A stretch of DNA of 40,786 bases from Magnetococcales bacterium (GTDB taxonomy: Bacteria; Pseudomonadota; Magnetococcia; Magnetococcales; JADFZT01). Made by a program: the position numbers and the translations under genes. The notes beneath the pieces are model-generated. The model searched no databases. It saw only the letters and a program-made list of their open reading frames with translations, and was not told the origin of the DNA. Where the stretch lies: positions 1 to 40,786 of the forward strand of contig JADFZT010000041.1 of NCBI GenBank assembly GCA_015232395.1. Reading direction: 5' to 3'. Positions 1-39,973 of the stretch are shown piece after piece (the first letter of the stretch is position 1; each line of letters begins with the position of its first letter).

Positions 1-220
1 TCTGGCTTTTGGAGCTGTTTCCGAGCCTTGCGGAGTTTGGCTGAATAAAAATGCGCTTTTGTGAAATTAAGGTGTTGTCCCAGACCCCAGGGTAGGTATC
101 CACGTGTTACTCACCCGTTCGCCACTCGTCAGCACTCCGAAGAGCCTGTTACCGTTCGACTTGCATGTGTTAAGCGTACCGCCAGCGTTCGTTCTGAGCC
201 AGGATCAAACTCTCCGAATA
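1..220 (-). rRNA. rrs: 16S ribosomal RNA, 5' end (partial)
   Basis: The reverse complement of 203-213 is the universal 16S start AGAGTTTGATC, followed by CTGGCTCAG and the conserved blocks around ACACATGCAAGTCGAACGG and GTGGCGAACGGGTGAGTAA. Only about the first 220 nt are present; the gene continues off the left edge. The mature 5' end is placed at about 220 by counting 7 nt upstream of that motif, as in E. coli. The sequence of this end is alphaproteobacteria/Magnetococcus-like. From about 1 to 75 the usual helix-8 hairpin (stem, GGAAAC loop, stem) is not recognisable in its normal form. Transcription is leftward from the promoter at 474-502. Confidence 0.95.
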
Positions 221-8996: not shown

Positions 8997-11900
8997 ATGG
9001 AAAACGGCAGCACCCTGGCGGATGGCCGCTATACCATTCTGGAACAACTGGGCCAGGGCACCCTGGGGCCTAGCTATCTGGCTCGGGAAGCCCGCTCGGG
9101 CATCCCCGTGGTGATCAAACCCATGCCCCAGGAAGTGACCCGTGAAGAGCGGGAGCTGGGGGAGTTGATTCGCCATTTTCAGCTGGTCCACTCTCTGGAA
9201 CACCCCCATATCGCCTCGGCCCACACCCTGGAATATGATGCCGCCAAAAGCTTCCATTTTTTGGTGTTGGAACATGTCGAAGGGTTGAACCTCCAGGATT
9301 TTCTCAGCTCCCAACCGGAAGGCAAGGTTCCGGTTTCGGTGGCTTCGGGCATCGTTCGGCAGCTGGCGGATGCCCTGGATTTTACCCACCGCACCACCCT
9401 GCATCGCAATCTCAAGCCCGAAAACATCATTCTGGGCCCCAAGGGGGATATCAAACTTCTCGATTTTCAGCTGGTCTCCGACAAAATTCTCGCTGCTTGC
9501 GCCACCACCGGCGCCAAAGGTCGGCGGCGCACCCAGCACTATATGGCGCCGGAATACTATTATGGTTTCCCCCCCCCCGGCCCCGCCGCAGACCGCTATG
9601 CCCTGGCGGCGATCTTTCACGAATTGGTCTCCGGACGTCCCCCCTTTCAATCGGAAGATTTTCAGGAGCTGCGCAACGCCGTCTGCAAAGCCGACCCCAC
9701 CCCCCTCAAAGAGCTGAGTCGTCGGCAAAACAGTCTGCTCATGCAGTCCCTGGCCAAGGATCCGGGCAATCGTCCTGCGACGGCTGGGGAGTTTGCCAGT
9801 GCGGTCAATCCCCCCCTCTTCGCCTCTTCAGGACTCCCCTGGAAATCGGCCATATTGGTGGGGCTGCTCCTGGCCGGGGGATATCTATGGCATACCCGCC
9901 CGCCAACCACCGAAAATCCATCCACCCCGGTCGCCACCATTCTGGAGCGGTTTCAGCCCCCACCTCCCGTGGTGGAGCCCCCCGCTCCCGCCAAGGTCAA
10001 TGAGGTCAATAAGACCGCTACCCGGGATAACACCCTGGTGCTGAGAATTCGCAGCCGTCCCGGTGGCGCCAAAGTTTTGCTGGATGGCAAACCCCTGGGC
10101 AACACCCCCTTTGTGACCGGACGGGTGCCGGTGGGCAATCATCTGCTGCGTCTGGAAAAACAGAATTATCAACCCTTTGAAATGGATGTCAATCTGTCAG
10201 CGGACACCATCGTTGACTTGAGCCTCGATCCTCTGCCACCCGACACCTCCCCCGTTGAACGAGAGAGCCCCACCCAGATGGCGATGGCGGGATCATCGGC
10301 TTCGGCCAAATCCTCTCAAAAGGCAGGGCTGACGAGATCGAAGACAAAGAGCGGTGGGCAACAATCGACGGCTTCGGCAGCTCCAAGCAGAGACAGCCGG
10401 AAAACCGCGTCGAAAACCACTGGAACCACGAAAAGCGACCAAAGCCAGGAAAAAGTCACCCAATCGGCGCAACACGCCTCAAACCAAACTCAAAAAGCGC
10501 AACAGGCTGCCCAGAAAAAAGAGGCCACTCAAAAGGCCGCCCAAGAAGCTGAGCAAGCGGCTCAAAGGGAAGATCGTATTGACGATCTGGTAGCCCGGGC
10601 TGAAGCCGATCTGGATGCCTGGCGTCTCTCCCATCCACCGGGAAACAACGCCCTGGAAAAATTTCGTCAGGTTCTGGATCTTGATCCCAACAACACCCTG
10701 GCCAACGACGGCCTCAAACGCATCGTCAACCGCTATCTCGATCTGGCCCGCAACGCCGGAGAGGATATGGCCCGGGTGGAACGCCATCTGGAGCTGGCCA
10801 GCGCCATTATTCCCGATGATCCCGGCATTGCCCTCTTCCGGGAAGAGTTGATTGAAGGCCCCACCGCCGACGAGCAAGACCCCACTGCCGGGCATGAGGA
10901 AGTTCAGGAACTTTTGGCCGAAGCCCGACAGGATATGCGCTCGTTGCGCCTGACCCGTCCAGAGGGGGAAAATGCCCTGGAAAAATATGAGGCCGTACTC
11001 AAGCTGGATCCAGGCAACAGCGAAGCCCAAGCAGGCATCGACCATATCGTCGCCAAGCTGGTTCCCCTGGCCCGGGCTGACCTGAACTCCCAGCGCCTCA
11101 CCCGGCCCAAGGGTCGAAACGCTCTACACAAATATCGCCAGATTTTGCGGCTTGACCCCGACAATCCCGATGGTCGGGCAGGTGTTGCGGTGATCGTCGA
11201 ACAGCTCCTGACCCTGGCCGAGGTGGACATCACTCAAAAACGCCTCTCCCAGCCGGAAGGCAACAACGCCTTTTTCAAATATCGCACGGTCCTGGAGCTG
11301 GATCCCGGCAACCAAAAGGCCAATGAAGGGTTGCAGCGTATCGCCAACCGCTACCATGAAATGGCCCAAAAAGAAGAGCCGGGCTCCAAAAGCCGTAAGT
11401 GGTTCCGGGGACTTGCCAAGGCGGTTTTGGCCAAACAGTCCGATGCCACCTCCTCTTCGGAAGTCACCCCGGTGGCTGCTGCCAAATCCACCTCCCGCTC
11501 TCAACGAACACGAGCCACCCAAACCTATGGAAGTCGCTCCAGCAGCTCTTCCAGAATCGAAGCCTCCGCTGAAACTGACACGGAGACAACAACGGGTCAA
11601 ACTTCCCGGAACAAGAGCCAGACCAAAACCTCTACCGCAACATCCGGGATAAAAACAGCCCCACCAGCTGATCCGAAGACGGTGCAAAGGCTCCTGGACC
11701 AAGGCCGCAAATATCTGTATGCCAACCGCCTGACCCGACCGGAAGGCGAAAACGCCCTCGACAGCTATCAGAAGGCGCTCTATCTCGACCCCGACAACAG
11801 CCGGGGCAAGGCGGGGCTCACCATCATCGCCAAACGTCTGGTAGCTTTTGGCGACAAGGATCTGGCCGCGAGCAGGCTCACCCGTCCCCCCGGAAGAAAC

Positions 11901-13052
11901 GCCCTGGCCCGCTACACCAAAGCCCTGGAGATCGACCCGGATAACGAGCAGGCCAAACAGGGCATCAACGCCATTGTGGAAAACTATCTGGCACGGGCCG
12001 ACCGGGCCGGAAGCACCAACCCACAGAGTGCCAGCCAATATCTGGATCGCGCTGAAGCGATCTCCCCCCAGGATCCACGGATTCGCCAAGCCCGGGAAAA
12101 GTGGGGGCTTGAGGTGCGTGATAACTGGTCCTCCCGGGAATCGACCCCGGAAGAGGTGATGGCCGACAGCCCCCCCTTAAGAGCGGATGAGGAGAGCTTC
12201 TTTCCTGAAGAGACAACCTCGGACGAAGCGGATCTGGCGACTGAAAACCTGCCGGTAGAACAATCCCCCGAAGAAGTGGATCGGGAGAGCGCCTCCCCCC
12301 CCCTCTACAACCCGCCATCAAACCAGCTCTGGCGTGATGCCACCACCGGCATGGCTTTTGTCCAAATCCCCGGAGGCTGTGATAAAATGGGCAGCAACCA
12401 CGGCGATTTCGACGAAGCCCCCGTACATGATATCTGTCTGGACAGCTACTGGATGGGTCGTCATGAGGTCACCCAGGGACAGTGGAATGCGGTGATGGGG
12501 GCTGGCAACAACCCCTCCAAATTTCGTCAGGGGGACAACTACCCGGTGGAGACGGTCTCCTGGAAGGATGTGCAGGGTTTCATTCAAAGACTCAACACCA
12601 TGGGGCCGGACCAATTCCGCCTGCCGACTGAAGCGGAGTGGGAGTTTGCCTGCCGGGTGGGCAAGGCGGCCCCCTTTCATTTTGGTGGCACAATCACCGC
12701 AAGCCAGGCCAACTATAACGGCACCTACACCTATAAAAATGAAAGCCCCGGGGAATACCGCCGAGCCACCACCCCGGTGGGACAATTCCCCCCCAACGGC
12801 TTCGGCCTGTTCGATCTTCACGGCAATGTCTATGAATGGGTGGCGGACCAATACGAAAAAGATTACTATGGAAACTCCCCCAGAGATAATCCCCAAGGAG
12901 GCAACAGCCTCGATGACTTTCGCATCTTGCGCGGGGGAGCGTGGTACAGCAATCCCGGCAACCTGCGTTGCAGCTACCGCTATCGGGGGCGCGCCGATAA
13001 TAGAAACTACGGCAACGGCTTTCGCCTGGTCCGACTGGATGACCAACCCTGA
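8997..13052 (+). CDS. Pseudokinase-PEGA-repeat-FGE-fold membrane protein
   Basis: A 1351-aa mosaic. Residues 11-270 form a Ser/Thr kinase fold: glycine loop GQGTLG, K41, APE motif at 184-186. The catalytic HRD is HRN (N138) and DFG is DFQ (156-158), so I predict little or no catalysis. One membrane helix is at 281-298. A PEGA domain is at about 347-410, then a Gln/Lys/Ser-rich linker (420-530). Six 48-aa repeats (537-790 with a gap, and 905-1001) share RLTRPEGxNALxKY and LDPxN. A sulfatase-modifying-factor (FGE) domain covers 1111-1347. The Cys pair of true FGE (Cys-Tyr-Arg-Tyr-Arg-Cys) is Ser and Gly here (S1326, G1331), so a binding role is more likely than catalysis. Its end resembles the variable C-type-lectin-like face of diversity-generating-retroelement targets. 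Topology would place the kinase in the cytoplasm and the rest in the periplasm. Confidence 0.85.
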   Translation: MENGSTLADGRYTILEQLGQGTLGPSYLAREARSGIPVVIKPMPQEVTREERELGELIRHFQLVHSLEHPHIASAHTLEYDAAKSFHFLVLEHVEGLNLQDFLSSQPEGKVPVSVASGIVRQLADALDFTHRTTLHRNLKPENIILGPKGDIKLLDFQLVSDKILAACATTGAKGRRRTQHYMAPEYYYGFPPPGPAADRYALAAIFHELVSGRPPFQSEDFQELRNAVCKADPTPLKELSRRQNSLLMQSLAKDPGNRPATAGEFASAVNPPLFASSGLPWKSAILVGLLLAGGYLWHTRPPTTENPSTPVATILERFQPPPPVVEPPAPAKVNEVNKTATRDNTLVLRIRSRPGGAKVLLDGKPLGNTPFVTGRVPVGNHLLRLEKQNYQPFEMDVNLSADTIVDLSLDPLPPDTSPVERESPTQMAMAGSSASAKSSQKAGLTRSKTKSGGQQSTASAAPSRDSRKTASKTTGTTKSDQSQEKVTQSAQHASNQTQKAQQAAQKKEATQKAAQEAEQAAQREDRIDDLVARAEADLDAWRLSHPPGNNALEKFRQVLDLDPNNTLANDGLKRIVNRYLDLARNAGEDMARVERHLELASAIIPDDPGIALFREELIEGPTADEQDPTAGHEEVQELLAEARQDMRSLRLTRPEGENALEKYEAVLKLDPGNSEAQAGIDHIVAKLVPLARADLNSQRLTRPKGRNALHKYRQILRLDPDNPDGRAGVAVIVEQLLTLAEVDITQKRLSQPEGNNAFFKYRTVLELDPGNQKANEGLQRIANRYHEMAQKEEPGSKSRKWFRGLAKAVLAKQSDATSSSEVTPVAAAKSTSRSQRTRATQTYGSRSSSSSRIEASAETDTETTTGQTSRNKSQTKTSTATSGIKTAPPADPKTVQRLLDQGRKYLYANRLTRPEGENALDSYQKALYLDPDNSRGKAGLTIIAKRLVAFGDKDLAASRLTRPPGRNALARYTKALEIDPDNEQAKQGINAIVENYLARADRAGSTNPQSASQYLDRAEAISPQDPRIRQAREKWGLEVRDNWSSRESTPEEVMADSPPLRADEESFFPEETTSDEADLATENLPVEQSPEEVDRESASPPLYNPPSNQLWRDATTGMAFVQIPGGCDKMGSNHGDFDEAPVHDICLDSYWMGRHEVTQGQWNAVMGAGNNPSKFRQGDNYPVETVSWKDVQGFIQRLNTMGPDQFRLPTEAEWEFACRVGKAAPFHFGGTITASQANYNGTYTYKNESPGEYRRATTPVGQFPPNGFGLFDLHGNVYEWVADQYEKDYYGNSPRDNPQGGNSLDDFRILRGGAWYSNPGNLRCSYRYRGRADNRNYGNGFRLVRLDDQP

Positions 13053-16552: not shown

Positions 16553-17953
16553 ATGAAAAAACATCCATTATGTCTTGGAATGGGTCTTCTGGTGAGCCTG
16601 GCCATTACAGCGCCTGTCTTTCCAGTAAAAGCCGATGGACCAGGCCCTGCCATGGCTATGGATGACCAGGATCTGGAAGCGATCAATCACCTGAGTTCAG
16701 CACAGCTCGGCCAGTTCAATCGCAAGCTCCGCCAGGCCATGGCGCTCTATTACGACAACGCCTATCCCCTGGCCCTGCCCCTCTTTCGGGAGCTGGCGGC
16801 CCAGGTGCCCACCCTGGACATTCTCTACTGGTATGGCTTAACCGCTCTGCGCAGCCAACAGCCCGACCTGGCCGTCACCAAATTTCAAGCGATGCTGGAT
16901 CGTAACCCGGACCTCCACCAGGTGCGCCTGGAAAAGGCCTCTGCCCTCATGCAGCTGGGCGAGCTGGAGCGCGCCCGGGGAGAGTTGGAAATGATTTTGG
17001 CTGCCAACCCTTCTGACGGCGTCCGGATGCAGGCGGAAAAAACGCTCAGCCAAATGGCCGGGGTGGATAAACGCTTTTACGCCAACCTGCGTTTGGCGAT
17101 GGGGGTCCAATACGACAGCAACATCAACGTCAGATCCGATGATCTGCCTACGGTGCTCGACACCCCCCAGGAAAAGGGTCTGGGATTTCCCGTCACCGCC
17201 ACGGTGGATCTACTCTTGGATGTGGGTGAAAAGGAAAAGTGGGCCTGGCGCAATCGGTTGAACATCTACCGCATCGATTATGATGGTCTGGCGGCTTTTG
17301 ATTATTCCCAATTTGACTTGGCCACCGGCCTGGAATATTTCGCCACCAACCATCATCTCAAGCTCCCGGCCGGCCTCATCACCCGTCACTATGGCCACGA
17401 CGATCTTTCCGACGCCTGGTATCTGGCCCCAGAGGTCAACTGGGCCTTGAATGACCGCCTGAACCTGAAGGTCGGCTATCGGTTTGAAGAGGAATCTTTT
17501 GATGACACCGCCAACCAGGATCAGGATAACCACAGCCACACTTTTTCACTCACCCCCATCTGGCAACTCGACACCCCCCAGCCCCAGGTGATCTCCCTCC
17601 TGGGCAACCACACCCGCAAGGATGCCCAAACCAGTCAGTTTACCTATGACGCCTGGGGGATTGCCCCCACCTGGTTTGCCCACTTCGAAGAGCTGGGGGT
17701 CGATACTTACCTCCAGGCTAAGCTCTCCTACCGGGCATATGAGGGCAATGCGGTGAACGTCACGGGAACCGACTTTCCCGATGAGCGGGAAGATCGGCGC
17801 ATGGGGGTAACGGCGATGGTCAACAAAACCTTTGATGAAACCTATATGGTTTCGGCCAGCTATTCGTTTGTCAGCAACGATTCCAACACCACCATCTACG
17901 ATTATGACAAGAGCGTATTTGGCCTCAATTTTGGCGTCAATCTGCACAATTAA
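16553..17953 (+). CDS. TPR / outer-membrane beta-barrel protein, Slam (DUF560, type 11 secretion)-like
   Basis: A 466-aa exported protein. It has a signal peptide (about 1-27), TPR-like helices (about 55-165, e.g. the ALPLFRELAAQVPTLDILYWYG region), and then a region of alternating aromatic strands (173-466) typical of an outer-membrane barrel, opening with MGVQYDSNINV. This layout (periplasmic TPRs then a barrel of about 290 aa starting near YDSN) is that of Slam/DUF560 proteins, which move surface lipoproteins or soluble cargo across the outer membrane. The Slam call is by layout, not by alignment; another TPR-barrel porin is possible. An AAGGG ribosome site precedes the ATG. The next gene starts 12 bp later, and the possible cargo gene follows that one. 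Confidence 0.6.
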   Translation: MKKHPLCLGMGLLVSLAITAPVFPVKADGPGPAMAMDDQDLEAINHLSSAQLGQFNRKLRQAMALYYDNAYPLALPLFRELAAQVPTLDILYWYGLTALRSQQPDLAVTKFQAMLDRNPDLHQVRLEKASALMQLGELERARGELEMILAANPSDGVRMQAEKTLSQMAGVDKRFYANLRLAMGVQYDSNINVRSDDLPTVLDTPQEKGLGFPVTATVDLLLDVGEKEKWAWRNRLNIYRIDYDGLAAFDYSQFDLATGLEYFATNHHLKLPAGLITRHYGHDDLSDAWYLAPEVNWALNDRLNLKVGYRFEEESFDDTANQDQDNHSHTFSLTPIWQLDTPQPQVISLLGNHTRKDAQTSQFTYDAWGIAPTWFAHFEELGVDTYLQAKLSYRAYEGNAVNVTGTDFPDEREDRRMGVTAMVNKTFDETYMVSASYSFVSNDSNTTIYDYDKSVFGLNFGVNLHN

Positions 17954-17964
17954 GAGCGAAATCG

Positions 17965-19293
17965 ATGATGATCTTCTCTTTTTCATACCGCTCCCGATTG
18001 AAGGCCCAGGCCAAGAGGCTGGCCCATGGCTTGATGGGTGCTGTTTTGGGGATGGCTTTGCTGGTTGGCCTGACTCTCTCCACCCCCTCCCTGGCTGGTC
18101 AACACGCACCATCGGGATTGGCTGGAGATCCTGGAGAGGTGACTGCCACTGGGAGTGTCGCCACCGCAACGGTGACCACCGCCAAACCCCTGGCCCGGGT
18201 GGTGCTGGCAGTGGGGGATGTGCGCCTGCTTTCGGCTTCGGGAAAATCTTCTGGAAAGGTAACCCTACAGGCCGACCTCCACCCCGGTGATCTCCTCGCA
18301 ACCGGAGCCGATGGTCGCTTTCGTCTGGAGCTTCCCGGAGAGGATCTCTTTCATGTAGGGGGCAGCAGTCTTGTCGCGGTGGAATCCTCTGCTGAAGGGT
18401 TGACCGTCAATCTGCAACAAGGGGTGATGGTGGCCTATCGTTTTCCTGCCCTTGAGGGTCGCCGCAACCCCGGCCCCATCCGCACTCCCCAGGGCCGGGC
18501 GCTTTTCACTTCCGGCAAGCTGGCTGTGATGGTGGATGCCCCCAAACGCACCACCGAAGTCCATCTGTTCGACGGGCAAGCCACCTGGTGGACCCACGAT
18601 GATCGGGAAAAACGGCTCTATCCCAAAAGCGCCCTGATCGTCACCCCCGACAGCATTCACAAAGCCACCTTTTCTGCCAAACAGGAGCACCGCCTTTCCC
18701 TCAAAACCAGCCCCGAAACAGCTGGCATGACCGCCGCTCTGACGGCCTATGATGGGGGACACATCGACCAGGCCAAAACGCTTTTTACCGTGGTTCAGAG
18801 GGCGTTTCCCTATAACGCTCTGGCCGCCTATTATCTGGGACTGATCCACCTGGAACACCGGGAGATCGCCAGTGCCATCACCCAGTGGCGCATCTATCAG
18901 GAGATCGACCCGGTCGGCGCCAAAAAGAAAGAGATCGACAAGCATCTCACCCTCCTGATCAGCCAACAGATAAAAAAGGAGATCCAGGAAGCCCTGGCCA
19001 ACGAGGAACACCTCTCCCAGGCGCCAGCCGATCCCAACACGGTCGCCGTCCCCCTTTTCATTCACAAGGGAGATGAAAAATTCAACATCCTCGCCAAAGG
19101 CATCACCGCCATGATCATTGCCGATCTGGCCAAGGTGCCCGGAGTGAAGGTGCTGGAACGGGCCAAGCTGCAAAAGCTGAGGGATGAAATCAAACTCTCC
19201 CAGAGCGGCTTGGTGGATCACGCCAGCTCCGCCAGGGTCGGTCGCCTGCTGCGGGCAGAAAAAATCGTCATGGGGGATTATTTGGTCCAATGA
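17965..19293 (+). CDS. FecR-TPR protein with half of a CsgG-like domain
   Basis: A 442-aa exported protein. The signal peptide has a long basic N-region (cleavage near residue 45). A FecR-like domain spans 76-225, including VGDVRLLSASG, LHPGDLLATG and TPQGRALFTSGKLAV. A TPR stretch spans 255-325. The start of a CsgG-like domain spans 358-442: ITAMIIADLAKVPGVKVLER, then LRDEIKLSQSGLVD and a strand ending MGDYLVQ. CsgG-like domains normally continue beyond this point, and the missing continuation is recognisable at the start of the next gene. The TGA overlaps the next ATG. Family members are periplasmic or cell-surface scaffolding or sensing proteins; the exact role is unknown. Confidence 0.75.
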   Translation: MMIFSFSYRSRLKAQAKRLAHGLMGAVLGMALLVGLTLSTPSLAGQHAPSGLAGDPGEVTATGSVATATVTTAKPLARVVLAVGDVRLLSASGKSSGKVTLQADLHPGDLLATGADGRFRLELPGEDLFHVGGSSLVAVESSAEGLTVNLQQGVMVAYRFPALEGRRNPGPIRTPQGRALFTSGKLAVMVDAPKRTTEVHLFDGQATWWTHDDREKRLYPKSALIVTPDSIHKATFSAKQEHRLSLKTSPETAGMTAALTAYDGGHIDQAKTLFTVVQRAFPYNALAAYYLGLIHLEHREIASAITQWRIYQEIDPVGAKKKEIDKHLTLLISQQIKKEIQEALANEEHLSQAPADPNTVAVPLFIHKGDEKFNILAKGITAMIIADLAKVPGVKVLERAKLQKLRDEIKLSQSGLVDHASSARVGRLLRAEKIVMGDYLVQ

Positions 19294-21290
19294 GCCTCTA
19301 CCCTCCCCCTTATCGTTCAGCCCGTTTTTTTGTCATGGGAAGCCTCAAACGGATACTGGTCTGGGTGGTGCTGTTTAGCGCTACCCTGGCCCAGGCTGAA
19401 GACATTTTTCAGGTCAATGCCGTCACCCTGGATGAGCAAACCCGACAACACCTGGGAAGCGCCAGTACCACTGCTGACACAAGCACCTTTTTTCAGGCCC
19501 AAAAAGAGCTGGTCCACCACATTCTGAACCAGATCGGCATCCCTTCCGAATCCCTCCCCCCGGAAATCCGGGATGCCGTCAACCAGCACCACACCACCAG
19601 CATCCATGCCCTGATCGCTTTTTCCCAAGGCTTGGATCATCTGGACAACAATCGATACAGCGAAGCCAAGAGCGCCTTTATCACCGCCACCAGACACGAT
19701 CCCGAATTCCAACTGGCCACCACCTTTCACGCCTCCATGCCCGAGCAAGCGATGGAAGTGCACGAAATCCACCAAGCCGCTGGCAGCAAAGGGCAGGCCC
19801 ATGCCAAGAAGATTTTAAGCCGGGTCAAGGCGATCAATCAGGGGAGCGCTGCCAAGGCTCAAAAAGAATCCACCACAGACGGGGAAGCCGACAAGAGCAC
19901 CCGGGTTGATGAGGGGGATTCTGATACCGCTACGAAAGCCGAAACCACGCCCGAGCAGGAGCCGGGAATGGCGTTGGCACAACATTTGGGCAGCGCCACC
20001 CAGGAAGAGACCGAGAGCGATCCATTCGACATTTTGACCGTTAAAAACGGCCTGGAGTGGCTCCTCAATACCGTCCAAACGGTCACCGAAGAAGCTTCAA
20101 GCAACGCTACCGGCGAAGAGATGGCGGAGATCACCCAGGATATCGTCAGCGAAGAGATTCTTCATGCCTCCGGGACAGGCACCTATGACTCGGCCCCGGC
20201 CTGCACCGAGGGGGCGGTCTGTGGTTTTTACACCACCTTTCTGGCGCAATATCCCCTGATCAGCGATAGCGATGGGGATGGGATGGTGGATGTGAGTGAG
20301 ATGGGCGATAACCTCCCAGCGAGCTTTGTAGACACCGACAGCGACGGCTTGGTCGATCTATCGGAAATCCAAACGGCACTTCCAGCGTTCATCGATCTGG
20401 ATGAAGACGAGGTGGTGGATTTTTCCGAACTCACCACCGCCCTCTGGAGCCTGGTGAGCACCCCCTATATCACCACTGACGGCATCAATCCCGATGGCAC
20501 CCAACAGTTGACCATCGCCCAGGATGGGGGGATCGGTCAGTTGGTGGCAGAGGGGAGCGACGGCGTTGTGACCCGCATCACCGGCTTGGTGGAAGGCAGC
20601 TCGGATAACAGCTGGAGCAGCCGTGATGACACCGATACCCTCCCCCTCTCCCGCATAAATACCGGGGAATATGAAGACGAAACGGGTAAAGTGGCCCTAC
20701 AGCTGGGTTATTACAGTGGCGCCTTCAGCGACAGCCAAACCAACACCATGGTCACCGATGATCAGGGTTTCTCGTTTTTTTACGACTGGCTCTTTTTTGC
20801 CGAAGGGGAACCCACCAGCAGCGAAAACATCGCCACCCTGGCCCAAAACAGCACCGACTACCACTATGCAGGTCGTGCCGGGGCTGATTTTCACACCCCC
20901 AGCGATCTTCAGTATTGCACCTCCTGCGGCACCTTTGAAGCCACCCTCAACTTTGCCCAAAGTAAAGTGAGCGACCTGGAAGTGGCCATCGATCTGGCCA
21001 GTGTCGGGGAATATGCCAACCCAGCGGCGCTCAACATCCAGGCCGCCTCTGCCAGCCTCATGAGCGACGGCACCTTCAGCATCACCCCGGGGAGTGACGC
21101 AAGCTTCCAGATCGGTGCATCCGGCAGCCTGGCAACAGCCACCAATGGCGCTCTGGCGGGCCGCACTTTTGGGCTCAATGCTGCCGCTGTCGGAGGAGTA
21201 TTTGCCCTGGAGGAAGGGGATTATGCCGCTGCTGGCAGCTTTGGCGGCAGCCGATTTGGTGGGGTCGGCACAGAGGTGGAAAAACGCTGA
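19290..21290 (+). CDS. Exported protein: CsgG continuation, Ca-binding-like motifs, possible TbpB-like barrel
   Basis: A 666-aa protein. A signal peptide follows M16 (KRILVWVVLFSATLAQA); the ATG at 19335 is an alternative start. Residues 37-145 (IFQVNAVTLDEQ, FFQAQKELVHHILNQIGI, IHALIAFSQGLDHLDNN) resemble the second half of CsgG-TPR proteins. A disordered acidic linker follows (180-300). Three Asp-rich loops, DSDGDGMVDVSE (326-337), DTDSDGLVDLSE (348-359) and DLDEDEVVDFSE (369-380), match dockerin/thrombospondin-3-like calcium sites. The C-terminus (about 530-660) is a Gly/Ala-rich strand repeat ending GGVFALEEGDYAAAGSFGG, similar in style to TbpB-type barrels carried by type 11 cargo. No lipobox Cys, so it is not a lipoprotein. 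Confidence 0.65.
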   Translation: MSLYPPPYRSARFFVMGSLKRILVWVVLFSATLAQAEDIFQVNAVTLDEQTRQHLGSASTTADTSTFFQAQKELVHHILNQIGIPSESLPPEIRDAVNQHHTTSIHALIAFSQGLDHLDNNRYSEAKSAFITATRHDPEFQLATTFHASMPEQAMEVHEIHQAAGSKGQAHAKKILSRVKAINQGSAAKAQKESTTDGEADKSTRVDEGDSDTATKAETTPEQEPGMALAQHLGSATQEETESDPFDILTVKNGLEWLLNTVQTVTEEASSNATGEEMAEITQDIVSEEILHASGTGTYDSAPACTEGAVCGFYTTFLAQYPLISDSDGDGMVDVSEMGDNLPASFVDTDSDGLVDLSEIQTALPAFIDLDEDEVVDFSELTTALWSLVSTPYITTDGINPDGTQQLTIAQDGGIGQLVAEGSDGVVTRITGLVEGSSDNSWSSRDDTDTLPLSRINTGEYEDETGKVALQLGYYSGAFSDSQTNTMVTDDQGFSFFYDWLFFAEGEPTSSENIATLAQNSTDYHYAGRAGADFHTPSDLQYCTSCGTFEATLNFAQSKVSDLEVAIDLASVGEYANPAALNIQAASASLMSDGTFSITPGSDASFQIGASGSLATATNGALAGRTFGLNAAAVGGVFALEEGDYAAAGSFGGSRFGGVGTEVEKR

Positions 21291-21909
21291 TCCATTGAAA
21301 ATCAGGATGGCAGATGGATTTTTCACAAAAAAGAGCAACAGAGTTCAACTCACGGGCTGAATTGACGCGACGACAGCGAGCCCGCAGCTTTACCTGTCGT
21401 AACCAGAGAAACCCTCGCCGCGGCCAAATCCATTTTATGGAGGCGGCCGCCGGTAATTAACTTAGCGGCGATTTTTTTTATAGATGGCAGCAGCCATCCA
21501 CAACTCCCTCTCAAGAGTCATCTTTATCGGAGGGATAACACCAGTTGCGGATATGGGAAGGTCGAAACAAAACGAAACCATATTCCGAGCCCCAGAGGGA
21601 ATGGCCCCTTTGATCCCAGCGGCCAAGCCCCTTTGAATGGCCGGAAATGGGTCGTGTGGTTCACTCAAAACAGCTCCCATTTTACTTTTTGTTCGAACCA
21701 AGAAAGCCTCACCGTTACTTTATAAAGAGAGCTTTTCCGGAATAATCTGCATAATTTGGGATGAAGCCAAAAAAATTCCTGGTCCCCAGGTGCCAGATGG
21801 CCCAGACTCCAAAAGGCTGGGTGATGGGACAATGGATTGCGGTGGGCCGGAATTTTTCTCTGGCCACCCGAAAAAACAAACCGCCACGAGGAAATCCCCA
21901 GGGGTAGCC
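21291..21909. other. Gene-free stretch with structured region before the protease gene
   Basis: About 620 bp with no convincing gene. The first part (21370-21480) is rich in inverted repeats: ACGACAG/CTGTCGT, GCGGCC/GGCCGC around a TCCATTTTATGGA core, and a terminator-like hairpin. The protease reading frame stays open leftward to 21637, but that extension has no signal peptide, no strong ribosome site and atypical composition. Confidence 0.5.
21446..21479 (+). terminator. Rho-independent terminator candidate
   Basis: GCCGC (21446-21450) pairs with GCGGC (21465-21469) and is followed by G-A and eight T. It would end the transcript of the 16553-21290 gene group. The stem is short but the T run is strong. 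Confidence 0.5.
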
Positions 21910-22896
21910 ATGGGTTTTATTTCTGCCTTTTTGATCACTTTTTCGATTTTGCTTTGGGGCGATTCAGCCCAAAGCAGCGAAAATATCTACCAAAAAATCG
22001 ATCCCAACATCGTCTGCATCAAAAGCGTCATGCCGGACCAATCGATACTGCTTGGCTCCGGCTTTTTTGTCTCTCCCGACCTGATCGCCACCGTAGCCCA
22101 CCAGGTGGTAACCGCTGAACGGGTGGAGATTTTTCTGGCCGATGGCCTCTCAAGCCCCGCCCAAACCGTCATGGCCAAGGAAAACTGGGATGTGGCCATT
22201 CTCCGGGTTCCCATCACCACCCTGGAAGGGATCTCCCTGGCTCCTCCCCACTCCGGCCCCTCCCTGGGGGAGGAGGTTTTTACCATCGGTTGTCCCATGG
22301 GGCTGGAACATACTCTGACCCGGGGTGTGGTGAGCAATCCCCGACGCACAATCGATGGACATCCGCTGATTCAGACCGATCTGGCCGTCAACAACGGCAA
22401 CAGCGGCGGCCCCCTGATCAACAATGCAGGCCAGGTGGTGGGTATCATCATGGGCTCGTGGAAAAATATAGGCAGCCTCAACTTTGCCGTCCCATCCGGC
22501 TATATTCGGGCAGGGCTTGAAGCGGTTTCGGAAACCATGGCCACCAAACACGCCATGGAGCAGTTCCAAACCGCCCAATCCCAGGAAGACCCCAACATCC
22601 GCAGCCAAATGCTGGATCAGCTCATCGACCGTCATTCCGACTCCCCCAAGCTTCTCGCTGAAGCCGGTCTGGCCTTTCATCAGCTGGGAAATTCCCAAAA
22701 AGGCAAAGATCTCCTCATCAAAGCCATTTCCATTGACCCACAATTCGCGGTAGCCTTCCGCAATCTGGGTGTGGTCTATGCGGAGGGGCTGGACAATCCC
22801 CACTCCGCACGTCAAGCTTTCATGACCTATCTCAAATTTGCTCCCGGGAAGGAAGAGACCCGGAAAGTTAAAAAGTGGCTCGATAATCTGCCCTAG
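21910..22896 (+). CDS. Exported trypsin-like serine protease with TPRs
   Basis: A 329-aa periplasmic protease of the S1C/HtrA type. Signal peptide about 1-20. Catalytic triad H64 (ATVAHQVV), D94 (ENWDVAIL) and S165 (NNGNSGGPL). The oxyanion-loop context GCPMGLEHTLTRGVVS is typical. No PDZ domain is visible; instead the C-terminus (about 220-329) carries TPR-like helices (LLAEAGLAFHQLGNSQKGKD, AFRNLGVVYAEGLDN). I chose the ATG at 21910 because AGGGG lies 5 nt before it and the signal peptide begins there. It lies 75 bp upstream of the kinase, so the two are probably co-transcribed. The substrate is unknown; proteolytic activation of an exported neighbour is a guess. Confidence 0.85.
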   Translation: MGFISAFLITFSILLWGDSAQSSENIYQKIDPNIVCIKSVMPDQSILLGSGFFVSPDLIATVAHQVVTAERVEIFLADGLSSPAQTVMAKENWDVAILRVPITTLEGISLAPPHSGPSLGEEVFTIGCPMGLEHTLTRGVVSNPRRTIDGHPLIQTDLAVNNGNSGGPLINNAGQVVGIIMGSWKNIGSLNFAVPSGYIRAGLEAVSETMATKHAMEQFQTAQSQEDPNIRSQMLDQLIDRHSDSPKLLAEAGLAFHQLGNSQKGKDLLIKAISIDPQFAVAFRNLGVVYAEGLDNPHSARQAFMTYLKFAPGKEETRKVKKWLDNLP

Positions 22897-22971
22897 AGAG
22901 CGTCAACACGACCTCCAAGGCTGGATTGACTGCCGTCGTCAAAACCCCACACATGTGATTTGACACCGCTC

Positions 22972-24492
22972 ATGGAACCTTTGACCAAGCTAGGCAAATA
23001 CGAAATCAAACGGACCCTTGGAAAAGGGGCCATGGGGATCGTCTATGAGGGGTACGACCCCTTCATCGAGCGGACGGTCGCCATTAAAACCATTCACAAA
23101 GCGCTTCTGGAAGGGGACGGAGGCCAGGAACTTTTGGCCCGTTTCAAACGGGAAGCCCAGGCGGCTGGACGCCTGATGCACCAAAATGTGGTGGCCATCT
23201 ACGAATATGGCGAAGATCAGGGCATTCCCTTCATCGCCATGGAGTTCATCAAGGGCAAGGAACTCAAGGATTATATCCGGGACCAGGCCCGCTTCGAGAT
23301 GGATAAGATCGTTGAAATCATGGACCAAACCCTGGACGCCATGGAATATGTCCATCGGGGTGGCGTGGTTCATCGGGATATGAAGCCGGCCAATATCATT
23401 ATTCTGGATGATGGTCAGGTTAAGGTCGCCGACTTTGGTATCGCTCGGGTGGAAAGCTCCACCATGACCCAGATGGGCGCGGTGATGGGCACCCCCAGCT
23501 ACATGTCCCCGGAACAGTTCATGGGACAGCGGGTGGATGCCCGGGCGGATCTATTCTCCATGGGGGTGATTCTCTACGAACTGCTCACCGGCGAGAAGCC
23601 CTTCCCGGGCAAGGCGGTGGCCACCATCATGCAGAAGGTGTTGAATACCGAGGCTGAGGATCCCAGCAACTTTAATTTCAACATTCCCACCTGCTTTAAC
23701 GATCTGATCCGAAAAGCCCTGGCCAAGCGCCCCGGTGATCGTTTCCAGGATGCCGGATCCTTTCGGGAGGCGATCAAGCTCGCGGCAAAAAATCAATACA
23801 AATCAGACCTTGACGATGGCGATGATGACGCAACGATCCTGGCGGGTGGGGTGGATGAGGATGACGAAGCCACCGTCATGGCGGCGGGTGGAGGATTGAG
23901 CAGCACGGATGCCACCGTCGCTGCCACCAATCCAGCTTCTGCCCAAACCGTGGCCATGGCACCCAATGCCATGGAAGCGGAAACCATCATCACCGCTGCT
24001 CCCGGGGGAGATGCCACCGTTGCCACGCCCCCTCCTGGCACTATCTCCGGGGGAGAGCCGAAAAAATCTTCCATGGGTTTGGTGATCGGCATCATCGGCC
24101 TGCTGGTGGTGGCAGGAGGGGGTGGGGCCTGGTGGTTTACCAGACCAGCTCCTGCTCCGACAAAAGCCCAACCCACAGCGACCCCACCAGCAGCGATCCA
24201 ACCCCAAACCGCTCCACCAGCCACCGCTACCACACCGACGGCCCCTGAGCCACCAGTCGCTGTGGTGGCCAAAGGAACCATCAGCGCCGCCAGCGAACCG
24301 ACCGAGGCGATGATATTGATGGATGGGGAGTTTATGGGCTTTACACCCAACACCTTTGAAATGCCTCCGGGGGAATATCAGCTGATTCTCAAAAAAAACG
24401 GCTTCCACGACATGGAAGCGAGCATTGAGGTGGTTGCCGATGAAGTGCTGGAGTTTGAAGTCGCTCTGGATCCTGTGGAGCCGGGTGGCTGA
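22972..24492 (+). CDS. PEGA-domain transmembrane Ser/Thr protein kinase
   Basis: A 506-aa bacterial (PknB-type) kinase with all catalytic motifs: glycine loop GKGAMG, K39 in VAIK, HRDMKPAN with D136, DFG (154-156), and GTPSYMSPEQ in the activation loop, which has several Thr/Ser. A juxtamembrane region (about 280-365) holds repeated DATV/DATI-type motifs. A membrane helix is at about 367-388, then a Pro/Thr-rich linker and a PEGA domain (about 435-502) outside the membrane. It may sense an envelope ligand and phosphorylate cytosolic partners. A TTG at 22960 would add four residues; neither start has a good ribosome site. Unlike the kinase fold at 8997, this one should be active. Confidence 0.9.
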   Translation: MEPLTKLGKYEIKRTLGKGAMGIVYEGYDPFIERTVAIKTIHKALLEGDGGQELLARFKREAQAAGRLMHQNVVAIYEYGEDQGIPFIAMEFIKGKELKDYIRDQARFEMDKIVEIMDQTLDAMEYVHRGGVVHRDMKPANIIILDDGQVKVADFGIARVESSTMTQMGAVMGTPSYMSPEQFMGQRVDARADLFSMGVILYELLTGEKPFPGKAVATIMQKVLNTEAEDPSNFNFNIPTCFNDLIRKALAKRPGDRFQDAGSFREAIKLAAKNQYKSDLDDGDDDATILAGGVDEDDEATVMAAGGGLSSTDATVAATNPASAQTVAMAPNAMEAETIITAAPGGDATVATPPPGTISGGEPKKSSMGLVIGIIGLLVVAGGGGAWWFTRPAPAPTKAQPTATPPAAIQPQTAPPATATTPTAPEPPVAVVAKGTISAASEPTEAMILMDGEFMGFTPNTFEMPPGEYQLILKKNGFHDMEASIEVVADEVLEFEVALDPVEPGG

Positions 24493-24578
24493 CACAGCTA
24501 TCAGGCGTTGAATTCAGGTTGATCAGGCTCATGAAGGGGGGATGGTAAAAGGCTTGTCAACACAGCTGCCGCCAATAA

Positions 24579-24607
24579 GCTGGCGGGCTTCCAAAAAGCC
24601 CGCCAGC
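24579..24607 (+). terminator. Stem-loop after the kinase gene
   Basis: A perfect 12-bp stem GCTGGCGGGCTT / AAGCCCGCCAGC with the 5-base loop CCAAA, followed by a weak T tract (CCCTTTC). It lies about 90 bp after the kinase stop and would separate it from the redoxin gene. Confidence 0.55.
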
Positions 24608-24765
24608 CCCTTTCAAGCCCATAACACTCCCACGGGCACCGGCCTCGATTCATCCCCCGGATATTCAGATTATTCAGACAAACACCAAAAAAAGATGATA
24701 TCCTGACTCACTGTAAACAATACCCAAAACTTTTTTTTCACGGCCATGGGGGAGGACCCTGAACC

Positions 24766-26706
24766 ATGAATCGCACAAAACATCTCTTGACCGCTCTCGT
24801 TAGCCTGGGGCTGCTCTTTTCCGGGGCTCATGGCGCCGAAGCACGACTGAAAAAGGGGGATCCCCTTCCCCAATTCGTCATCCGGACCACCCAAGGGGAT
24901 GTGGTCAGCGAAAAAAACTTCCAGCAGTCCAATCTGGGAGTGATCTATTTTTTCAAGATGAACAAATGCAAAAGCTGCTTGACCGGCCTGGAAAGCCTCA
25001 AAGGGATCGGTGATGCCGCAGACAAAGGCATTCAGATCGTCGCCGTAGGTAAGGAAGATGACGCTTCCCTGAATAAATTTGCCCAGGGCCTGGGACTCAC
25101 CTTCCAGGTGGGCTCAGCGGAAAAGCAGGTCTTCAAATCCTTCTCCGCCTCCCTTCTTCCCACCACACTGCTGGTGGGGCCGGATGGCCAGGTGCTCAAG
25201 GTGATCCACGGTGGGGGTAAGCACGCCGCCAAGCTGATGACTGAACTGGCCTCCACCCAGTTGGACCGCCAGGATCCCGCTGGTGCCCAGGCCCTGTTTG
25301 CCAAAGCAGCCAAACTGGAGGCCAACCCGGCGGTGGAGATAGGGCTCGCCTACAGTGATCTGAAGTCAGGCAACCTGGAGCGCGCCCAAGCCACTTTCAA
25401 AAAGCTCTCCGCTTCCCCTGATACCCAGGTGGCCATGCAGGCCAAAGAAGGATTGGCAGAGGTGCTGTTTCAAAAAGGAGAGACCAAAGCGGCCCTCTCC
25501 ACCGCCGAATCGGTGCTGGCTGAGGACCCTAACCGCTCCATGGCCAACTTGGTAAAGGGTAAATCCCTCCACTCCCAGGGTAAATCCGCTGATGCCAAAA
25601 AGGCCCTGACCAAGGCGGTCTCCGGAGGGGCTCAAGCAGAGTTTTCCTGGCAAAAATCGGACGCCCATCTGGCTTTGGGCAACCTGGAGATGAAAAATGC
25701 CAAATCCCAGATTGCCTTGAAATCCTTTAAACAGGCCGCTGCGGAAAACCCCTTTTCAGCGGATGCCCTCTCCAACCAGGGTGTCGCCCTGAAAAATATG
25801 GGTAACCCGGAAGAGGCCTTGAAGGTCTTCAAAAAACTGAAAAAGGTCCACACTTCCGACGTGCTGGTCCACGCCCTCATGCGTCAGGCCCAGTCTGCCA
25901 TCGCTCAAAAGCAGGATCTGGAGCGGCAAAAATATATCGACGGCATGGTAACCGACCTGGTGGCCCGCTTTAAGGAGATCAAAAAACTCCCGCCACCGAA
26001 AGATACCTGGACCTCCCCTGCGGGAGCCCTCTCGATCCTCGGTTTTCAAAACAATGCCCAGGGCAATCTCAGTGGCCGCATCGGCATGGAAGGCATCCTC
26101 AAGGATGAACTCACCCGGGAGCTGGGGGATCTCAACGTCAGCGTGGTGGATCGTGAAATTCTCGACAAGGTGCTGGCTGAGCTGAAACTGGGCTCCTCTG
26201 ATCTGGCCAACCCCAAAACCCGCACCAAGCTCGGCAAGATTACCGCAGCCCATGTGATGGCCACCGGCAGCTTTTATAATCAAGCCAAAGGTTCCACCGC
26301 CACCATGCGCTTGGTGGAGACGGAAACGACGGATATCTTTCTGGCTCTGAGCAAAAACTTCGAAAAAAGCCTCGATCCCAGCCAACTGGCTGCTGAATGG
26401 GCCGAAAAGATCGCTGCCAAGGTGCGGGAACAGCATCCCCTCCAGGGTCGCATCGTCTCCATCAAGCCCAAGCAGATCATCATCAACCTGGGCAAACGCC
26501 ATGCTGTTACCAAGGGCTTGGTTTTCAATGTGTTGAGTGAGGGTGAAGCGATTGATCTGGGAGATGGCGAAGTGGTCTACGACTATGATCAACTGGGCCA
26601 GATCGAAGTCACCAAGGTGCGTGACAAGATCGCCTATGCCCAGGTCGTGACCAAATCCGGCGAATGGGCCAAGCAGCAAAAAATCATCATCGCCTCTGCA
26701 CAATAA
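24766..26706 (+). CDS. Exported redoxin-TPR-CsgG-like fusion protein
   Basis: A 646-aa periplasmic protein. Signal peptide about 1-26. A thioredoxin/TlpA-type domain (about 27-165) has the CxxC C68-K-S-C71 and the cis-Pro stretch SLLPTTLLVG, so dithiol chemistry is possible. TPRs cover about 170-400. A CsgG-like domain (about 422-560) includes LDKVLAELKLGSSDLANP and HVMATGSFYN. A C-terminal FlgT-like barrel (about 566-645) includes GRIVSIKPKQIIINLG and AVTKGLVFNVLSEG. GGGAGGA precedes the ATG at good spacing. The redoxin-CsgG fusion is unusual. It is followed 27 bp later by another CsgG-like gene. A role in folding or coupling redox state to envelope assembly is inference. Confidence 0.8.
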   Translation: MNRTKHLLTALVSLGLLFSGAHGAEARLKKGDPLPQFVIRTTQGDVVSEKNFQQSNLGVIYFFKMNKCKSCLTGLESLKGIGDAADKGIQIVAVGKEDDASLNKFAQGLGLTFQVGSAEKQVFKSFSASLLPTTLLVGPDGQVLKVIHGGGKHAAKLMTELASTQLDRQDPAGAQALFAKAAKLEANPAVEIGLAYSDLKSGNLERAQATFKKLSASPDTQVAMQAKEGLAEVLFQKGETKAALSTAESVLAEDPNRSMANLVKGKSLHSQGKSADAKKALTKAVSGGAQAEFSWQKSDAHLALGNLEMKNAKSQIALKSFKQAAAENPFSADALSNQGVALKNMGNPEEALKVFKKLKKVHTSDVLVHALMRQAQSAIAQKQDLERQKYIDGMVTDLVARFKEIKKLPPPKDTWTSPAGALSILGFQNNAQGNLSGRIGMEGILKDELTRELGDLNVSVVDREILDKVLAELKLGSSDLANPKTRTKLGKITAAHVMATGSFYNQAKGSTATMRLVETETTDIFLALSKNFEKSLDPSQLAAEWAEKIAAKVREQHPLQGRIVSIKPKQIIINLGKRHAVTKGLVFNVLSEGEAIDLGDGEVVYDYDQLGQIEVTKVRDKIAYAQVVTKSGEWAKQQKIIIASAQ

Positions 26707-26733
26707 TTCACATCCAACCAGGAAATCCCGGTC

Positions 26734-27597
26734 ATGTCCTTATTCAAACGCGGTTTTTTTCTCCTGGCAGCACTGCTCTTTCTTCTTTCAGCCAAGCCGG
26801 GATTGGCGGAGGAAGGAGAGCCCCCACCACTGGATCCCCGTATACGCACTGTGGCGGTGTGGGACTTTGAAAATGCCACGGTAGCGGGTCTTGCAGACAT
26901 CACCGCCCTGGACTATCTGGTGCGGGCGATGCCGGAAATGATCGTCGCCAAACTTGTCAGCATCAAAGATCTCAAACTGGTGGAACGTGTCCACCTACGG
27001 GAGGCTTTGGAGGAATTAAAGTTGGGATCGAGCGAGCTTGCCAGCCAAAAATCCCGACTGCAACTGGGTCGCCTCTCCGGAGCGCGATTCATGATTTTCG
27101 GTGACTTTATGGCCATCGGCCCCACCATTCAGGTGAGTGTGCGGGTGGTGGAGGTGGAGACCTCTCTCATCACCTTCGTCGATAGCGTCAACGGTACGAT
27201 GGATGGCATCGGCGGCCTGATCAACGGCCTGTCGGACAAGGTCGCCCGTAGCTTTGCCCACACCCCTTCCGCCACCCGCTTTGGCTGGAAGGAAGATATG
27301 AGTGTCTGGAAGCGCCACGAAGAGGGCATCCGCCTGATCGACGACCGCAAGTACAAGCAGGCCGAAGCGCTATTCAAAAAGCTTCTGGCCAAGCACCCCA
27401 CCTTCCAACCGGCCCAGCGGCAGATGAAAATGGCCCAGTTGGGTGAAAGCTACCGCAATGGTGTGGATGCCCTTAAAGCCAAAGAGTATAACAAAGCCAT
27501 CAGCGCCTTCAAAAAAGTCCTCAAAGCCGACGCCGCCTTTCAACCGGCCCGGGATAAACTCAAGGCTGCTCTGAAGGCCAAACGGCAGGCTCGATAG
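26734..27597 (+). CDS. Exported CsgG-like protein with TPRs
   Basis: A 287-aa protein. Signal peptide about 1-25 (ending SAKPGLA), no lipobox Cys. The CsgG-like domain covers about 36-170: TVAVWDFENATVAG, LREALEELKLGSSELASQ, ARFMIFGDFMAIGPTIQVSVRVVEVE. TPR helices cover about 195-287. The ELKLGSS(D/E)LA motif is shared with the gene upstream, so the two domains are close paralogues. True CsgG is a lipoprotein pore for curli; with no lipobox and no csgA/B/E/F nearby, this is more likely a periplasmic structural or assembly protein. AGGAAA lies 8 nt before the ATG. Confidence 0.82.
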   Translation: MSLFKRGFFLLAALLFLLSAKPGLAEEGEPPPLDPRIRTVAVWDFENATVAGLADITALDYLVRAMPEMIVAKLVSIKDLKLVERVHLREALEELKLGSSELASQKSRLQLGRLSGARFMIFGDFMAIGPTIQVSVRVVEVETSLITFVDSVNGTMDGIGGLINGLSDKVARSFAHTPSATRFGWKEDMSVWKRHEEGIRLIDDRKYKQAEALFKKLLAKHPTFQPAQRQMKMAQLGESYRNGVDALKAKEYNKAISAFKKVLKADAAFQPARDKLKAALKAKRQAR

Positions 27598-39551: not shown

Positions 39552-39586
39552 AAAAAAAAACGCCCGGGACCGGAGTCCCGAGCGTT
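39552..39586 (-). terminator. Cold-shock gene terminator
   Basis: AACGCTCGGGAC / GTCCCGGGCGTT form a 12-bp stem (one mismatch) with a 4-base loop, followed by a total run of nine T on the minus strand (39552-39560). A classic strong rho-independent terminator. Confidence 0.92.
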
Positions 39587-39622
39587 ATTTACAGAAGATT
39601 TTTCGAATGGAATTCGAAATCT

Positions 39623-39835
39623 TCAGGCAACCTGTACGTTGGCTGCTTGCAAGCCTTTTTGGCCGCGGACAACCTCGAAGGTGACCTTTTGTCCCTCATC
39701 AAGGGATTTAAAGCCGGTAGCCTGGATGGCGGAGAAGTGCACGAACACATCTTCGCTGCCATCATCGGGCGCGATGAACCCGAATCCCTTGGAGTTGTTG
39801 AACCACTTCACTGTACCTTGCACTGGCTGAGACAT
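39623..39835 (-). CDS. Cold-shock domain protein (CspA family)
   Basis: A 70-aa single-domain RNA/DNA chaperone. RNP-1 is KGFGFI and RNP-2 is VFVHF, in the order and spacing of the family, with [17 protein letters not shown] at the start. Two adjacent ATGs exist (39838 and 39835). AGGAG sits 4 nt before the first and 7 nt before the second, so I chose 39835. A promoter-like site at 39944-39973 would give a leader of about 100 nt, fitting the long untranslated leaders of csp genes. Confidence 0.93.
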
Positions 39836-39943
39836 CATCTTACTCCTAATTTGAAACCTGAAGACTTCGCTTCCGTAGTTGGATAGTAGGTGAGGCCCCC
39901 CCCGATTCTGGCAAAAGCCTCTTCTCCATCCCTAAAGAGCCGC

Positions 39944-39973
39944 ACATTAAACCGAAAAACTGAAAAAATGCAA
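39944..39973 (-). promoter_or_regulatory. Cold-shock gene promoter candidate
   Basis: On the minus strand TTGCAT (-35), 18 bp, TAATGT (-10). It lies in the 165-bp gap between the csp gene and the rightward ATPase gene. The match is fair; the long T-rich spacer makes it tentative. Confidence 0.4.

Follow-up and report, generated by a model that had tools for sequence, protein, structure and literature searches.

Three adjacent genes, here called A, B and C, raise the question of whether an exported protein can be docked at its exporter, or anchored to the cell, through a split protein domain instead of a lipid. The genes lie in the window, the whole stretch of 40,786 nucleotides that we analysed from a Magnetococcales bacterium (contig JADFZT010000041.1), and all three ORFs were confirmed at the coordinates collected in Table 1. 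Their products appear to be an outer-membrane exporter (A), a periplasmic helper (B) and a protein for export (C). A first-pass annotation, made from the sequence alone, had read the locus as a type 11 secretion system (T11SS) that unites sensing, transport and surface display. Our analysis retains the Slam/DUF560 exporter, the FecR/CsgG partners and the TbpB-type cargo, but not the sensing.

Table 1. Coordinates of the A-B-C locus, its parts and its 3' neighbours in the window
Feature	Position	Strand	Length	Description and basis
Gene A	16553..17953	+	466 aa	T11SS (Slam/DUF560) outer-membrane protein; signal peptide, TPRs, SlipAM barrel
A, TPRs	residues ~56-161	+		precede the barrel
A, SlipAM barrel	17102-17932	+		residues 184-460; PF04575
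Gene B	17965..19293	+	442 aa	exported FecR-like/TPR protein; C-terminal end is the first half of the CsgG-like domain
B, first half of CsgG-like domain	about 19033-19290	+		CsgG profile match
B/C stop/start overlap (ATGA)	19290..19293	+		place of the domain split; read from sequence
Gene C	19290..21290	+	666 aa	predicted non-lipidated T11SS cargo
C, signal peptide	19290..19397	+		cleavage by eye at AQA/ED (residues 36/37); no lipobox
C, second CsgG-like half and TPR helices	19398..19736	+		hairpin residues 39-63, helix 64-81, TPR helices 91-149; AlphaFold2 pLDDT 82-93
C, three EF-hand-like loops	20265..20429	+		PF00036, E 4.4e-5
C, TbpB-type beta-barrel	20646..21254	+		residues 453-655; AlphaFold2, Foldseek, profile match
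Neighbour, HtrA-like trypsin domain and TPR	21637..22896	+		same place in G010
Neighbour, Ser/Thr kinase with PEGA domain	22960..24492	+		same place in G010
Neighbour, thioredoxin-like/TPR/CsgG protein	24766..26706	+		CsgG unsplit; family recurs in 7 loci
Neighbour, small CsgG-TPR protein	26734..27597	+		unsplit; relatives recur in 7 loci

At E 4.4e-13 and 49.8 bits, the barrel of A exceeded the PF04575 (SlipAM) cut-off of 22, which bears out its assignment to the Slam/DUF560 proteins, and the same model scored above cut-off in relatives. The TPRs were recognised by TPR_16 (44.8 bits), while TPR_Slam gave E 5.4e-6, under its cut-off in the window copy and over it in the Magnetococcales genome G010. 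Gene A is the only SlipAM match in this genome (G000, 99% complete). As PF04575 has caught PgaA-like proteins (PMC8406197) and Pel export has a periplasmic lipoprotein ring, one might suppose that A exports a polysaccharide in the manner of PgaA or PelB, which also combine TPRs with a barrel, and that the other genes are accessory. However, the PgaA model did not match A, no polysaccharide synthase was found among the neighbours examined, and the next gene but one encodes a T11SS-type barrel. We found no support for a polysaccharide exporter and regard it as highly improbable.

That barrel, at the C-terminus of C, was modelled by AlphaFold2 with pLDDT mostly of 85-95. Compared with the PDB by Foldseek, it returned TbpB, LbpB, fHbp, NHBA or HpuA at each of the first 50 places (5kkx, E 2.9e-8), in agreement with the resemblance to TbpB-type barrels that the first-pass annotation had inferred by eye. 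Neither of the two results that this annotation had named as speaking against it, one for A and one for the C-terminus of C, thus turned up. Scores of the Pfam model TbpB_B_D remained under the cut-off of 26 in all four Magnetococcales with the A-B-C order: 14.5 (E 0.053) for the window copy, with E 2.1e-4 for genome G043 and 8.2e-4 for G007, whose matches cover most of the profile. A Thiobacillus C protein with the same N-terminus passed it (35.7). A barrel profile searched against the PDB retrieved TbpB, LbpB and NHBA with a best E of 2.1e-8, and TbpB still ranked first (E 0.0014) after the rows of Thiobacillus, the strongest member, were removed. In two more distant genomes, matches to this profile adjoin SlipAM genes (L022, E 8.7e-12; L037, E 1.5e-4), as expected of T11SS cargo. 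In G000, C bears the only TbpB-type barrel, two genes away from the only Slam and within one operon-like gene set with it. Overall, we are confident that A is a T11SS outer-membrane protein and C its cargo; C may be displayed on the surface.

Besides a TPR, gene B has a match to CsgG (Pfam; E 3.2e-7, 30.3 bits against a cut-off of 20.8) that covers only positions 32-96 of the 210 in the profile. FecR gave no match reaching E 1 in the window copy because the region is too diverged; it exceeded the cut-off of 24 in the orthologue from G010 (27.0) and in Rubrivivax (L086, 25.6) and fell slightly under it in L074, L096 and L093. These orthologue scores lend some support to the FecR partner noted earlier. 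Nevertheless, we reject a FecR sensor: the N-terminus of B reads as a cleavable signal peptide, B is predicted to be exported whole, no transmembrane or cytoplasmic anti-sigma part was seen in it, and no FecI-type/ECF sigma gene was found among the neighbours examined. Unlike the curli CsgG channel, which has a complete CsgG domain with membrane-inserting strands, B shows an incomplete CsgG match, and the same neighbours include no curli subunit genes.

Sequence comparison suggests that the CsgG-like domain is divided between the two genes, its first half ending B and its second half beginning C behind a signal peptide of its own. The earlier annotation had seen CsgG modules in B, but had overlooked this cut, the least usual trait of the locus. 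CsgG matches in B and its homologues stop near profile position 96 of 210, which in itself proves nothing because matches in the window's unsplit CsgG proteins end at that point as well. In single-chain homologues, eight of which carry both halves in one frame, the CsgG-TPR protein runs on into what corresponds to the first mature residues of C. Such single-chain forms come from Desulfobacterota, Nitrospirota, genome G002 and a paralogue in this genome (G000:C29). AlphaFold2 modelled a single-chain homologue poorly (pLDDT 58) and the fold search returned no CsgG match; for this reason it is sequence that argues for one domain.

The split pairs that we gathered number 32 and come from Magnetococcales, Methylococcales, Thiobacillus, Burkholderiales and others. 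In all of them the cut falls at the same place, B stopping 0-17 residues from the end of the matched half, and every C-half bears a hydrophobic leader. The start of C ranges from 23 nt upstream to 29 nt downstream of the stop of B, with an overlap of 4 nt in 21 pairs. In a tree of the joined halves, all 32 pairs are found on one side of one branch (support 100/99), a topology that makes the change a single event. The tree alone gives no direction of change, and a split from the single-chain form is the simpler reading because that form spans phyla. The overlapping ORFs might also suggest that B and C are one gene, either broken by a frameshift (an error or a pseudogene) or joined by programmed frameshifting. 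Yet the conservation of the split in 32 pairs from several orders, the variable spacing, the leader on every C-half and the single clade refute a frameshift error or pseudogene for the family and leave frameshifting of any kind a negligible probability. The first-pass annotation had proposed checking co-occurrence within Magnetococcales, where the A-B-C order indeed recurs in three other genomes (G043:C29, G007:C81 and G010:C199), each with exactly one SlipAM match. It missed, however, that the B/C arrangement is conserved across several proteobacterial orders and is not private to this genome.

The surroundings of the locus are partly preserved as well. The order of the four genes that follow C (HtrA-TPR, kinase-PEGA and two CsgG-TPR genes) was found again in G010, and window positions 21637-27597 share an identical gene order with positions 420-5970 of L014, from another Magnetococcales family (HtrA-TPR, kinase-PEGA, TlpA-like/TPR/CsgG, CsgG-TPR). 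Elsewhere in the window, positions 8997-13052 encode a 1351-aa fusion of a Ser/Thr kinase, PEGA, TPRs and an FGE-sulfatase domain, and a cspA thermoregulator RNA match (39556-39956, minus strand, 92.2 bits) lies over a 71-aa cold-shock-like ORF (39623-39838). Promoter and terminator scans stayed at chance level, and neither a scan of genome contigs with C alone as query nor a scan of viral sequences returned a match.

Which exporters does the split pair accompany? A Slam-like outer-membrane protein gene adjoins 27 of the 32 pairs, and a TolC-family gene adjoins three (G000:C4, at 8383-11915 of L016; G010:C123, in L015; G010:C194, in L019). Together with two more pairs, the TolC-type pairs form one clade (support 99/96), and FecR was absent from the two of these five that were checked. 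Their C-half ends in a different tail, which is not a barrel. Two kinds of outer-membrane channel thus accompany the split pair, each with a different tail following the half-domain. A giant adhesin, DUF4347-like by eye, lies beside G000:C4 and G010:C123. In Desulfobacterota, Slam is followed by a single-chain CsgG-TPR protein with no barrel (L102, 8499-16025; L104, 1953-4626); LRR and lipoprotein genes lie 3' of these genes in L102. Two further Magnetococcales Slam genes (L028 from G029 and L029 from G021) have a FecR-like neighbour, with no CsgG half in the stretch examined.

In Burkholderiales, the Pfam SlipAM model matched neither of the two outer-membrane proteins tested. Profile-profile comparison with the Slam set aligned 401 columns with E 8.9e-32, part of this alignment being TPR. 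The tails of the Rubrivivax C proteins gave no convincing match to the barrel profile or the PDB. These gaps, namely tails not demonstrably of TbpB type and an exporter homology seen by profile-profile comparison only, count against the proposal made below. Directly upstream of the Slam-like gene, 16 loci encode a giant protein; a scan of one of these proteins showed YDG repeats, and the sequence is similar in the remaining loci. In seven Burkholderiales genomes, checked by coordinates, a TPS domain opens this protein and the gene for a ShlB partner lies upstream of it. These seven loci (L077, L083, L086, L089, L093, L095 and L096) hold a ShlB-type TpsB and a TPS-domain giant of 3.9-5.3 thousand residues ahead of the Slam-like gene and split pair, so that a T5b system adjoins a T11-like one.

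Because of these seven TPS loci, and of the Desulfobacterota loci that have no barrel, a reading in which C is not the cargo stays in play. B and C would then form a periplasmic ring or collar on A, the barrel of C would be a docking piece, and the true cargo would be some other protein, which in Burkholderiales would be the giant two-partner adhesin encoded nearby. A ring of this sort is formed by PelC under the TPR-barrel exporter PelB (PMC12141448), and the non-barrel tails of the TolC loci, two of the three with a giant adhesin next door, would agree with it. However, no giant adhesin adjoins the Magnetococcales loci, and the barrel of C, the only one of its kind in the genome, matches T11SS cargo specifically. 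We consider a collar rather improbable and keep to C as the cargo.

How might such a cargo be held at the cell? C bears no lipobox and is thus not a surface lipoprotein of the Neisseria type, and no convincing lipobox was found in the C-halves of the split pairs. A lipobox is present on the partner or single-chain form in L092, L017, L018 and L103, which fits a membrane-side anchor. Conservation within C peaks in the half-domain with its TPR region. The linker (residues ~190-450) has largely low AlphaFold2 confidence, as for a disordered stretch. The three calcium-loop motifs described in the first pass are indeed there, at residues 326, 348 and 369; two of them are strict D.D.DG motifs, and none of 2000 shuffles of C contained two such motifs. 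These EF-hand-like loops seem to be lineage-specific, as no other C protein examined has them.

Keeping this in mind, we propose, as the probable reading, a T11SS locus in which C is docked and tethered through a reassembled split domain. A would be the outer-membrane translocator and C its non-lipidated cargo, with the C-terminal TbpB-type barrel as recognition mark, while B would stay periplasmic. The CsgG-like domain, one chain in relatives, would have been cut once, long ago, with B keeping the first half and C the second. It is likely that the two halves reassemble the domain in the periplasm. Reassembly would dock C beside the Slam channel, the long flexible linker would let handle and barrel pass through A, and C would be left tethered by its N-terminus, not by a lipid. 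The split may therefore allow an exported protein to be docked or anchored in a lipid-free manner, though we would suggest the tethering itself with some reserve. The cargo of known T11SS is believed to pass the membrane in full, which a periplasmic tether would not need, and this counts against tethering. A more general scenario can be put forward only tentatively: a single ancient gene fission may have produced halves that reach the periplasm as separate exported chains and come together again there, the cargo half being a protein-only anchor or docking tag, and the same pair may serve both Slam (T11SS) and TolC (T1SS), with the tail alone changing with the channel.

It is also conceivable that B acts in the periplasm as a chaperone or targeting factor, binding the N-terminus of C and passing C on to the Slam channel, after which C is fully released into the medium. 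Release into the medium is described for non-lipidated T11SS cargo such as HrpC (PMC8406197), the periplasmic chaperone Skp is required by some T11SS cargo (PMC12282271), and the 4-nt B/C overlap in most loci suggests translational coupling. Known T11SS, however, work without a dedicated split-domain partner, and the linker between the docking half and the barrel is longer than release requires, so that we deem a chaperone unlikely, if worth bearing in mind. Docking through the reassembled domain remains the reading we prefer.

Most T11SS clusters outside the animal-associated one are without known cargo (PMC8406197, PMC12282271). Our analysis offers a candidate cargo and a conserved partner for the T11SS group of Magnetococcales, Methylococcales and Thiobacillus, as well as a lead in Burkholderiales. 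If the half-domains bind each other, they would be a natural split-protein tether, explaining how T11SS cargo that bears no lipid is retained by the cell. Two T11SS surveys mention neither Magnetococcales nor FecR nor CsgG. Literature searches for FecR and CsgG together with Slam or with two-partner secretion yielded nothing relevant; their coverage was incomplete and such an absence is weak evidence.

Among known systems, the locus resembles HrpB-HrpC of Xenorhabdus, a T11SS of the soluble-cargo type, in which the gene for a TPR-barrel outer-membrane protein lies close to that for a protein with a signal peptide, an 8-stranded TbpB-type barrel at its C-terminus and no lipobox. Unlike HrpB-HrpC, it adds a FecR/TPR/CsgG partner, and the N-terminus of its cargo is half a CsgG-like domain with TPR rather than a handle alone. 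The single-chain CsgG-TPR proteins (Desulfobacterota and relatives, L100-L104; Nitrospirota, L105; the paralogue G000:C29) have the same domain order and sequence, and those of L102 and L104 also follow Slam, but they are one chain and have no barrel tail. The TolC-linked pairs share the split and both half-domains; in contrast, they adjoin a TolC-family protein, their C-half tail is not a barrel and FecR is absent from B where checked. The fold of PelC is related to the CsgG/TolB N-domain. In PelB-PelC, too, a TPR-barrel outer-membrane protein has periplasmic proteins docked on its TPRs (PMC12141448), yet that system exports a polysaccharide and PelC is a one-chain lipoprotein. Overall, we conclude that the locus is a variant of T11SS and not a new kind of system; the split docking domain would be a new principle if binding of its halves is borne out.
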